From assembly GCF_006538365.1 (NCBI RefSeq), contig NZ_BJKN01000001.1, positions 613,639-677,638 on the forward strand: DNA of 64,000 nt, read 5' to 3'. This DNA is from Moorella sp. E308F. GTDB lineage: Bacteria; Bacillota; DSM-521; Neomoorellales; Neomoorellaceae. This document shows positions 17,886 through 20,642 of this stretch, piece after piece (position 1 is the stretch's first letter; every line of letters begins with the position of its first letter). Under the pieces are notes generated by a model that was not told where the DNA came from, did not search any database, and saw only the letters and a list, made by a program, of their open reading frames with translations. A program made the position numbers and the translations under genes.

Positions 17886-19025
17886 TTATTTCGACGGCAA
17901 CTCACCGAGGGTTACTGTAAAATTAAGCTGCTTTTTGCCGGCTAGGCGCACAGCAGTTAAAGTTACCTTATCCCCCGGTAATTTTTTATTAATCAAGCTC
18001 TGGATATCGGCATAGCTCGTCACTTTATTGTTGTCCACAGCGATAATGACATCGCCTACCTGTAGCCCGGCCCTAGCCGCCGGGCCATCATTAAAGATGC
18101 CGCCGATATATACCCCCTCCGGTATATTATACCACCGAGCCATTTCCGGGGTAATCTCCCGGAGGTTATAAACGCCTAGAAAAGGATGGGTAACATAGCC
18201 CCGGGTTAAGATCTGGTCGATAATAGGACGCGCATCGTTGATGGGGATGGCAAAACCCATCCCCTCTACCCCGCTGGCGGCTATTTTAACGCTGTTAATG
18301 CCGATAATTTCTCCCCTTAAATTTACCAGGGCACCGCCGCTGTTGCCGGGGTTAATGGGAGCGTCGGTCTGCAGGGTCCGCAGGGTGATCTCTGCTCCGT
18401 GGGGCCCGGGCACGGTCACTTCCCGGTTCAAGGCACTGATGACCCCCACCGTTACCGAACGGGCAAATGCCCGACCCAGGGGGTTGCCAATAGCCACTAC
18501 CGTCTCTCCCACCTGGACAGCGCCCGAATCTCCCAGGCGGGCCTGGGGTAAATTGGTTCCCTTGATCTGCAAAACTGCCAGGTCGCTTCGCTCATCGACT
18601 CCCACGACGGTGGCCGGGTAAACATGGTCATGATCGAGGCTGACGGTGACCCTCTCAGCGCCGGCAATGACATGGTTATTAGTGACGATATAGCCGTTAG
18701 CACCGTCAAAAATAACGCCCGAACCCTGTTTTATCCCGCCTTCACCCGTAAAGCTGCGGCCCGTCATGGCCGCCACCCCAACGACGGTCGGGCCAACCTG
18801 CCTGGCAATGGTAACTACCGGTGAACTGTCCGTAAACTGGACCGGTTGTCCCGCTGGTGGAGTTAAGGGGGCCGTAGATCCAGGTGCCGGCGCCAGGGGC
18901 CGCTGCATCAGGCGGGGGGCCATGACAATGGCCGTCCCGGCACCGAGGACCGCACCGAAAAAAAACAGCAGGATTATTGCCACGATCCGCACGTACTTTA
19001 AGCTGCCGGGAAAAGGATAACGCAA
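17886..19025 (-). CDS. htrA: Membrane-anchored HtrA/DegP-like serine protease
   Basis: A 379-residue quality-control protease facing outside the membrane. A short N-terminus is followed by one transmembrane helix (about 10-32), a Pro/Ala-rich linker, a trypsin-like domain with the triad in TNNHV (His), SDLAVLQI (Asp) and PINPGNSGGAL (Ser), and one C-terminal PDZ domain (GPAARAGLQVGDVIIAVD). The start is TTG at 19025 because AAGGAGG lies 7 bases upstream; the ATG seven codons earlier contains that ribosome site. It directly precedes rlmH. Confidence 0.94.
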   Translation of the reverse strand: MRYPFPGSLKYVRIVAIILLFFFGAVLGAGTAIVMAPRLMQRPLAPAPGSTAPLTPPAGQPVQFTDSSPVVTIARQVGPTVVGVAAMTGRSFTGEGGIKQGSGVIFDGANGYIVTNNHVIAGAERVTVSLDHDHVYPATVVGVDERSDLAVLQIKGTNLPQARLGDSGAVQVGETVVAIGNPLGRAFARSVTVGVISALNREVTVPGPHGAEITLRTLQTDAPINPGNSGGALVNLRGEIIGINSVKIAASGVEGMGFAIPINDARPIIDQILTRGYVTHPFLGVYNLREITPEMARWYNIPEGVYIGGIFNDGPAARAGLQVGDVIIAVDNNKVTSYADIQSLINKKLPGDKVTLTAVRLAGKKQLNFTVTLGELPSK

Positions 19026-19110
19026 AATAATGCCTCCTTGCTCCAAATGAAGACTGCTTGCTCTCCTTCAGTTCTAATATTACCTGCCGACCACTATTTT
19101 ATAATTTAAA

Positions 19111-19145
19111 GATAAAAAAAGCTCCCGGAAGCCATTCCAGGAGCT
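19111..19145 (-). terminator. Terminator of the small 19.2-kb transcript
   Basis: AGCTCC/GGAGCT with an inner GGAA/TTCC pairing, followed on the minus strand by seven T residues. It closes the region between the peptidase gene and htrA, so htrA is not simply read through from upstream and the 19150-19310 region forms its own short transcript. Confidence 0.8.
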
Positions 19146-19198
19146 AAGGAAAAAGCTATAAGGGAGGATGGTTGGGCAGTTTAACGTCATGCCCAGGA

Positions 19199-19264
19199 CT
19201 ACCTACTGTGACCGCCGGAACAGTGGGCCACCGGGCGCAAGAAGTACCTCTTGAGCCTGAGCAT
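19199..19264 (-). CDS. Possible 21-residue Cys/His peptide
   Basis: A 21-codon frame starting MLRLKRYFLRP and ending HCSGGHSR. GGAGGTG stands 8 bases before the ATG, an excellent ribosome site. It lies between a promoter-like sequence (19319-19324) and a strong terminator (19111-19145), with a CsoR-like palindrome just before the ribosome site, so it looks like an independent mini-gene. The peptide is basic, with one Cys and two His near the end that could bind a soft metal. Alternatives are a regulatory leader peptide or a small RNA whose frame is fortuitous. I know no family for it. The rest of the 310-base gap holds no other gene. Confidence 0.45.
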   Translation of the reverse strand: MLRLKRYFLRPVAHCSGGHSR

Positions 19265-19289
19265 GTAAATCGCACCTCCATTTCGAAGA

Positions 19290-19324
19290 ATACCCTTATA
19301 GGGTATCTGTTTGGTTTTAATATA
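19290..19324 (-). promoter_or_regulatory. Promoter -10 and CsoR-like operator of the 19.2-kb mini-gene
   Basis: TATATT on the minus strand (19319-19324) with a poor -35. Downstream is the palindrome ATACCC-N5-GGGTAT (19290-19306), placed where it would cover the start of transcription. The form resembles copper-sensing CsoR operators and the palindrome at copZ (20592-20606). Confidence 0.5.
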
Positions 19325-19356
19325 ACCCGCAGATGTGATATTTTTGTGAAGAAAAG

Positions 19357-20229
19357 TTAAAGGCTTTGTGAAAACCTGCTTACCGGAAATTCCCGGGAAA
19401 AGGCTTCCTCAAAGGTAACAGTGCTGACGCCAAGGACTTCCTGGAAGGCTCTTTCCAGGGGAGCCCCCCGGCCGAGGCGTTCCAGGACCTGGCGTAAGGC
19501 CGGTAAGCCCCACTTTTCTACCAGGTAGGCAACCATTAAAAACGACTGGCGGTACGCCAGGGCCTGATCAGGCAGGCTATCAAATCCATAATCCATGGCC
19601 TTTAATGGATACCAGCCAGTAGCATCCGGCGAACCCGGCATAGTAAAGCCGGTAAGTTCCTTTTCTATATACTGGGCAATACCTTCCGTCAGCCAGCGCG
19701 GGTAGTTACCCCGCGCCTTCTCGTCCACCATAAGGTGGGTCAATTCATGGGCTACGGGTCCTGAAACAGCAAAAATATGGGCAATCTCTTTCAGGTCCCG
19801 GCCGGCCACCCAGTCAAAGGGCGAAAGGACACGGATAACCCCGCCCCAGTAAACCCCCATGGCACTTTCGCTGGCTGCCCAACCAAACTGGCGCGCAAGA
19901 CTCTCCCGGTCAGGGTAAAGTATAATTAAAGTTTTACCATGGGGTGCATGTTGTAACATCGCACCCACCGGCCCGTAAGCCTCCTCGGCGGTTGCCAGGA
20001 CCAGGGGGGCGATAGCGGCATCCTCCTGCCGGTAGCGAAGGCGGAAATGGGAGCTATCTATCTCCTGCCAATTACGGGTCTGCCAGGCGGTATGTGCTGC
20101 CACTATCTGGCGGACCAGGCTATAGCTTAAGGTACGCGGTAAAGCTGTAGTACGCGCCAGGATAACTACTGCAACTGCCAGCACAGCCAGGCAGCTAACA
20201 ATAATTACCTGCCACCAGTGTTGTAACAA
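19357..20229 (-). CDS. Membrane-anchored zinc metallopeptidase (peptidase MA-like)
   Basis: A 290-residue protein with an N-terminal transmembrane or signal segment (residues 5-27) followed by an extracellular gluzincin domain. The zinc motif is HELTH with the third ligand in WLTEGIAQYIEKEL, the arrangement of the peptidase MA-like family found in many Firmicutes. No substrate is known. The start is TTG preceded by GGGGAG. It lies downstream of copZ, separated by a terminator. Confidence 0.8.
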   Translation of the reverse strand: MLQHWWQVIIVSCLAVLAVAVVILARTTALPRTLSYSLVRQIVAAHTAWQTRNWQEIDSSHFRLRYRQEDAAIAPLVLATAEEAYGPVGAMLQHAPHGKTLIILYPDRESLARQFGWAASESAMGVYWGGVIRVLSPFDWVAGRDLKEIAHIFAVSGPVAHELTHLMVDEKARGNYPRWLTEGIAQYIEKELTGFTMPGSPDATGWYPLKAMDYGFDSLPDQALAYRQSFLMVAYLVEKWGLPALRQVLERLGRGAPLERAFQEVLGVSTVTFEEAFSREFPVSRFSQSL

Positions 20230-20302
20230 GTTTCTCCCCTCCCCCAGGGGCTCTCCCGTTTCGATTATACTATATTGCTGGCGGCAGCTTCACTGGTAAT
20301 GA

Positions 20303-20338
20303 GTGTAAAAAATCCGGAGCAGGCTTGGCTCCGGATTT
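20303..20338 (-). terminator. Terminator of copZ
   Basis: An 11-bp stem AAATCCGGAGC/GCTCCGGATTT with a 7-base loop, followed on the minus strand by TTTACAC. It is about 30 bases after the copZ stop. Confidence 0.85.
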
Positions 20339-20368
20339 TGTAAAAAAGTTTGCTTGGTAATATCCTGT

Positions 20369-20575
20369 CTATTTTACTTCATAACCTGCCTCAGTTACAG
20401 CCTTTTTCATAGCTTCCAGGTTTACCTTAGCAGGATCATAAGTAACGCGGGCCGTCTTGGCCGCCAGGTCGACTGCTACTGCCGTGACGCCTTCCAGGCC
20501 CCCCAGGGCCTTTTCCACGCTCATTTTACAGTGATTACAGGTCATCCCCTCGACCTGCAGGACAACTTCCGCCAT
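20369..20575 (-). CDS. copZ: Copper chaperone, heavy-metal-associated domain
   Basis: A 68-residue single HMA-domain protein of the CopZ/Atx1 type, with the Cu(I)-binding GMTCNHC loop (cysteines 13 and 16) and the beta-alpha-beta-beta-alpha-beta pattern ending AVTEAGYEV. Such proteins carry Cu(I) to CopA ATPases. No copA or csoR is in this window. It is monocistronic, with a consensus promoter, a palindrome over the transcription start and its own terminator. GAAGGAGGTGACGGT precedes the ATG. Confidence 0.92.
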   Translation of the reverse strand: MAEVVLQVEGMTCNHCKMSVEKALGGLEGVTAVAVDLAAKTARVTYDPAKVNLEAMKKAVTEAGYEVK

Positions 20576-20591
20576 ACCGTCACCTCCTTCC

Positions 20592-20642
20592 TACCCGGTA
20601 CGGGTATATAGGTATTATAATCTACCGGAAAACAAGTGTCAA
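20592..20642 (-). promoter_or_regulatory. Consensus promoter and palindromic operator of copZ
   Basis: A perfect TTGACA (20637-20642), 17 bases, TATAAT (20614-20619) on the minus strand. Just downstream is the 15-bp palindrome TACCCG-N3-CGGGTA (20592-20606). So strong a promoter with a dyad at the start implies tight repression; a CsoR-type copper sensor is the likely regulator. Confidence 0.75.

Follow-up and report, generated by a model that had tools for sequence, protein, structure and literature searches.

Genes and signals around the mini-gene

The window, a stretch of 64,000 nucleotides from the genome of Moorella sp. E308F, contains copZ, a peptidase-like gene, a mini-gene of 21 codons and a protease gene, all read from the reverse strand. 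The relevant features are the following.

17886..19046, minus strand: gene of an HtrA-like trypsin/PDZ protease, downstream of the mini-gene terminator
19120..19145, minus strand: intrinsic terminator of the mini-gene, a stem followed by a T run
19174..19199, minus strand: pseudoknot GTCCTGGGCATGACGTTAAACTGCCC (GUC/GAC and GGGCA/UGCCC), its first base being the last base of the stop codon
19199..19264, minus strand: mini-gene frame, 21 codons plus stop, reading MLRLKRYFLRPVAHCSGGHSR and then the stop; a member of the HCxxG[C/H] microprotein family
19220..19222, minus strand: invariant Cys codon TGT of the mini-gene, 23 nt upstream of the structure's first base
19274..19279, minus strand: Shine-Dalgarno sequence GGAGGT of the mini-gene, 6/6 match
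19290..19306, minus strand: CsoR-type palindrome ATACCC-TATAA-GGGTAT of the mini-gene, assigned from the sequence and its conservation in sister species
19319..19324, minus strand: −10-like box TATATT of the mini-gene, assigned from the sequence
19357..20229, minus strand: gene of the Peptidase MA superfamily between copZ and the mini-gene, an order kept in related genomes
20369..20575, minus strand: copZ, encoding a small heavy-metal-associated protein (MTCNHC)
20591..20607, minus strand: copZ palindrome ATACCC-GTACC-GGGTAG, conserved in sister genome G001
20614..20642, minus strand: copZ promoter TTGACA-N17-TATAAT, 12/12 consensus bases

An earlier note on this DNA had described the 21-codon frame with its ribosome site, terminator, −10 box and palindrome, and all of these are present in the sequence, as are the perfect promoter and the palindrome of copZ, 1.3 kb away from the palindrome of the mini-gene. 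The two palindromes were said to occupy the same relative position, which holds approximately: the distance from the −10 to the start of the palindrome is ∼6 nt at copZ and ∼12 nt at the mini-gene. A convincing −35 was not found for the mini-gene; the nearest TTCACA sits 20 nt upstream of its −10.

CsoR-type palindromes in the Moorella genome

The palindrome ATACCC-N5-GGGTA was searched in the complete genome of 3.06 Mb. Without mismatches it occurs at three places, versus none for the reversed control. These places are copZ, the mini-gene and the promoter of a CoA-ligase-like gene (L004:1501-1516, corresponding to C1:838414-838429 of the genome), where the palindrome lies just behind a −10; the gene looks like an ADP-forming CoA ligase and has no obvious copper link. 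With one mismatch allowed, 75 sites were found in the whole genome versus 56 in the control, which is close to background, and such sites were not used as evidence, except for that of copA, whose promoter layout matches. The genome encodes a single protein of the CsoR family (E 5e-29), with an operator-like half palindrome, ATACTGGATAAGGGTAT, near the start of its gene, and copA is preceded by a TTGACA-N17-TATAAT promoter with ATACCGGTGGGGGGTAG (one mismatch) behind it.

A DNA search revealed a second copy of the mini-gene in the same genome, ∼330 bp upstream of copA, with the peptide MTRKRWMLRAVAHCKEGC. This copy has no CsoR-type palindrome and is closed by its own terminator, 270 bp ahead of the promoter of copA. 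The palindrome of the window copy is kept in three sister Moorella genomes, that of copZ in one of them. In the sister genome G003 (L009:1501-1614) the ortholog of the window copy is decayed: the promoter, ribosome site and N-terminal codons are lost, and the HCSGGHSR end and the pseudoknot are kept. As the repressor is encoded and the promoter palindrome is conserved in sister species, the window copy is likely a (putative) member of the CsoR regulon; copper control is likely a property of this copy only.

A conserved peptide of about 20 residues

The frame of the mini-gene is genuine, its conservation across relatives being far beyond chance. Across at least ten phyla, 114 non-redundant relatives preserve R-x-V-A-H-C-x-x-G-[C/H] and vary at the third codon positions; the information amounts to 1.28 bits for codon positions 1 and 2 and to 0.40 for position 3. 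The Cys and the Gly are invariant in these frames, the Gly being encoded by all four codons. The peptides of the family are 16–27 amino acids long with HCxxG[C/H] as the invariant part, the second ligand being Lys or Ser in single members.

The pattern TCCNGGGYANGACNTNAAACTGCCC matched at least 117 contigs, and the matches listed include Deltaproteobacteria, Omnitrophota, Zixibacteria, Nitrospirae, Actinomycetota, Acidobacteriota, Aminicenantes, Auribacterota, Neomarinimicrobiota and Bacillota; the reversed control gave no match in 398 Bacillota genomes. Among the matches listed, a frame with the HC motif precedes 124 of 139 pattern sites, and 122 of these 124 frames have at least four of six Shine-Dalgarno matches. 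Since the initial set was picked by the exact pattern, the invariance of the core is partly imposed, and its true spread is seen in the Geobacterales variants and the divergent copies described below. A covariance model found the element in 14 of 22 genomes of the class to which the window belongs. Further samples gave 55 of 58 for Geobacterales, 4 of 40 for a Desulfobacterales class and 6 of 38 for Omnitrophota, these three counts including a seed genome chosen for having the element. A mobile element was considered and rejected, as there was no plasmid match and the genomes hold 1–4 copies each.

Rfam, Pfam and NCBIfam gave no family match above cut-off. The peptide strings and a 15-nt stretch of the RNA motif were not found in the open-access literature, and the searched portions of the main text of two surveys of bacterial structured RNAs do not describe the element. 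A gene family of tiny peptides with a fold at a fixed distance appears to be undescribed. A peptide of ∼20 residues that spans ten or more phyla and was found in almost all of the Geobacterales genomes searched must matter.

An RNA structure at a fixed distance from the Cys codon

The most conserved part of the element is the RNA structure downstream, which the earlier note had overlooked; in the DNA search of relatives the best conserved stretch lay directly behind the frame. In 116 of the 124 pattern-selected loci the structure, an element of 26 nt, starts 23 nt downstream of the invariant Cys codon. Its usual form is an H-type pseudoknot, GUCCYGGGYANGACNUNAAACUGCCC, in which GGGYA pairs with UGCCC and GUC with GAC. 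The G preceding the searched pattern was not required, yet it is invariant (91/91). Compensatory changes in both helices are present in two divergent copies (L232 and L233; AUCCUGAGYANGAU..., with AUC/GAU), and a third copy (L237) has lost one base on each of two paired strands. The outer pair −1/14, which the pattern leaves free, covaries, being paired in 55 cases in bacteria versus 36.6 after shuffling (p about 1e-4) and in 44 cases in phages versus 27.9 (p about 5e-5).

Most Geobacterales copies keep the peptide but carry an unrelated GC-rich hairpin (22–26 nt) with abundant compensatory pairs, starting at nt 22–23 in 36 of 38 copies. Another unrelated hairpin is found at the same place in a copy from the window's own family (L235). 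That two structural solutions share one distance suggests that the distance to the ribosome matters. The start of the second Cys/His codon is 11 nt upstream of the structure, and the stop codon is located before, at or inside the structure, depending on the copy, so that some ribosomes must unfold the fold.

Several other roles for the structure were considered. An alternative fold, with the GGGC strand paired to GCCCA in the Ala-His codons, was dismissed since all four bases occur at the wobble position of the Ala codon. A SECIS element was rejected because the codon after the second Cys varies and no conserved in-frame UGA precedes the hairpin; programmed frameshifting because there is no slippery site; and programmed readthrough because the frame past the stop is not conserved. 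An attC-like reading was dropped as well.

The same fold in phages

The exact pseudoknot pattern is present, without the peptide, in 99 stretches of IMG/VR (L349-L447, for example L385, L360 and L370). A frame ends just upstream in 55 cases, and in 28 of these the pseudoknot lies 6–7 nt after the stop codon; the genes in front encode, for example, Hsp20, a protease or proteins of unknown function. A terminating ribosome on such a stop codon would again have the fold at its entrance. The phage pseudoknots are sometimes arranged in tandem or behind a tRNA gene, and one viral contig has an Rfam match to the Pistol ribozyme (L372:6968-7029) ∼270 nt upstream of tandem pseudoknots.

The position behind phage stop codons would also suit a barrier to exonucleases (RNase J or 3′–5′ enzymes) that mainly stabilizes the transcript, with the peptide being independent of it, and the pseudoknot resembles coremin, which stalls Xrn1 (PMC10520033). 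For such a barrier a precise spacing from a codon would be unnecessary, yet the spacing is constant for two unlike structures, and in many copies a terminator hairpin directly follows the fold in any case. We consider a role as mainly a barrier quite unlikely.

Genomic surroundings

Many copies look, from their sequence, like transcripts of their own. Promoter-like sequences lie directly upstream of copies in Geobacterales, and a terminator was found at 31 of 124 loci, mainly in Firmicutes and in most cases 1–45 nt behind the structure; these signals, together with the strong ribosome sites, were counted in favour of autonomy. The nearest downstream genes include those for Rrf2 regulators, copper P-type ATPases and hemerythrins, and the nearest upstream genes those for PDZ proteins, Metal_resist, ArsR and YHS proteins; some copies adjoin arsR and merR genes. 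A P-type ATPase is encoded within 2 kb of 22 of the 139 listed loci versus 3 of 444 control ORFs, and Rrf2 near 19 of the 139 versus none in the control DNA, which was drawn from a subset of such genomes, the loci not all being independent.

The palindromes in front of the frames differ as well. CsoR-type palindromes are present 35–60 nt before the start in Moorella, Andersenbacteria and another of the Bacillota, and the palindrome AATGATACNNNNNTGGTATCATT occupies the same interval in about 14 Omnitrophota with an rrf2 gene just downstream. At Omnitrophota loci such as L056, L074, L099 and L101 a conserved AATGATACNNNNNTGGTATCATT precedes the micro-gene and rrf2 follows about 50 nt behind; further on lie genes for Hcp-like, FprA-like, rubrerythrin-like and ferredoxin-like proteins, and the loci represent a probable, uncharacterised redox regulon.

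The earlier note had taken the matching palindromes as signs of a small copper-responsive regulon that includes a CsoR-controlled Cys/His peptide or small RNA. The conserved peptide, missing from Rfam, Pfam and NCBIfam, the csoR and copA genes and the kept palindromes support part of this for the window copy, palindromes being found at copZ, copA, csoR and the mini-gene and the peptide having Cys/His ligands. A copper role for the family as such was not supported: most members have no CsoR-type site, an Rrf2-type operator is found in Omnitrophota, the neighbours include ArsR, MerR and Rrf2 systems, and Lys or Ser can replace the second ligand. The second Moorella copy, with its own terminator and no palindrome, also speaks against it, as does the third exact palindrome, that of the CoA-ligase-like gene. 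A copper-specific peptide or small RNA is therefore an improbable explanation of the family.

The surroundings also bear on a cis-acting leader, in which arrest on the peptide would act, through termination or translation, on the gene that follows (htrA in the window; copA, macA and rrf2 elsewhere). At about 106 of 137 loci the micro-gene shares its strand with the gene after it. In Firmicutes and Geobacterales the structure is closely followed by terminators, and in Omnitrophota the structure and rrf2 are about 50 nt apart; copies placed immediately before rrf2 resemble leaders. In many Geobacterales macA-like genes follow 150–260 nt behind. Against this, about 30 of the 137 copies face a neighbour on the opposite strand, copA has a promoter of its own behind the terminator of the second copy, the downstream genes differ widely and no antiterminator was seen. 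A cis-leader role may apply in some lineages, such as the Omnitrophota; it cannot explain the copies with an opposite-strand neighbour, and for the family we regard it as unlikely. At Geobacterales loci such as L273, L276, L283, L296, L303 and L306, one copy per genome often has a macA-like efflux gene at this distance downstream, separated from it by a terminator; rrf2 or doxX-like genes are found close to some of the remaining copies.

A microprotein gene with a putative ribosome roadblock

The reading that we prefer, with a probability of roughly one half, is that of a stress-linked microprotein gene, often autonomous, in which an RNA roadblock pauses the ribosome and the peptide or the paused ribosome acts in trans. 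With the second Cys/His codon in the P site, a fold at the observed distance would sit at the mRNA entrance of the ribosome. The pause should then occur while HCxxG[C/H] is in the peptidyl-transferase centre or adjacent to it. CsoR is probably the repressor of the window copy, with copper relieving the repression; elsewhere its place appears to be taken by different repressors that sense metals or redox state. We think that a trans-acting product, either the peptide or the ribosome paused on it, takes part in the response to metal or thiol stress. This explanation builds on the conserved peptide, the covarying structures at one distance, the copies that stand alone, the excess of stress genes nearby and the similar fold that blocks scanning ribosomes in vitro (PMC10520033); the pause, the copper response, the action in trans and any metal or thiol chemistry of the peptide are inferred. 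The varying neighbours count against it, as they fix no single pathway, and so do the need for some ribosomes to unfold the structure, the partly imposed invariance of the core and the leader-like copies of Omnitrophota.

A more far-reaching version is possible but doubtful: a hitherto unknown class of bacterial micro-genes in which the roadblock, in one form much like coremin, pauses the ribosome at HCxxG[C/H] and lets the growing peptide detect, or react with, soft metals or thiol-reactive compounds, the fold being employed by phages as well, after their stop codons.

The exact distance between codon and structure leads to a clear and testable prediction of ribosome pausing. If the preferred reading is true, a coremin-like fold that stalls ribosomes, known from viruses of eukaryotes, extends to bacteria and phages, and translation joins the responses to metal and redox stress.

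Comparison with known systems

Ribosome-mediated attenuators offer one parallel. The uORFC-8-2 motif upstream of cysS (PMC8632094) shares with the micro-gene a short ORF, two Cys codons and downstream stems. In the micro-gene, however, the second Cys can be a His, the peptide is conserved well past the Cys codons, and a consistent downstream target gene, as expected of an attenuator, was not found. Pseudoknots that stimulate frameshifting or readthrough are likewise stable folds at ribosome entrance distance, but the micro-gene has neither a slippery site nor a conserved downstream frame.

CruR (DUF2946), a copper-responsive upstream ORF of Bordetella that is thought to act via the ribosome (PMC9426467), is like the microprotein a short, Cys-bearing frame linked to copper genes. 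Its CXXC and C-terminal RAPP motif are absent from the consensus of the microprotein, which gave no Pfam match. The microprotein is also much shorter, is often not upstream of a target gene and has a putative RNA roadblock.

A structural parallel comes from coremin (xrRNA-C) of plant viruses and double-stranded RNA viruses (PMC10520033, PMC5869530), with the motif GUCCGAAGACGUUAAACUAC and the loop consensus YGAD, or YGNNAD for six nucleotides; besides Xrn1 it stalls scanning ribosomes, the latter in vitro (PMC10520033). Both elements have a GUC/GAC hairpin with a fourth covarying pair, a UNAAACU spacer and about the same size. The hairpin of ∼4 bp that characterizes coremin is found in the bacterial element, where GUC/GAC is invariant apart from the compensatory AUC/GAU and the outer pair covaries. 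The loop differs, having 8 nt (CYGGGYAN) and departing from the coremin consensus, and the second hairpin of coremin is absent, its place being taken by pairing of the 3′ strand with the loop (GGGYA/UGCCC). Coremin occurs in RNA viruses; the present element occurs in bacteria and phages. Because of the different loop and the missing separate second hairpin, the bacterial pseudoknot is, as judged from its predicted fold, coremin-like rather than a coremin.
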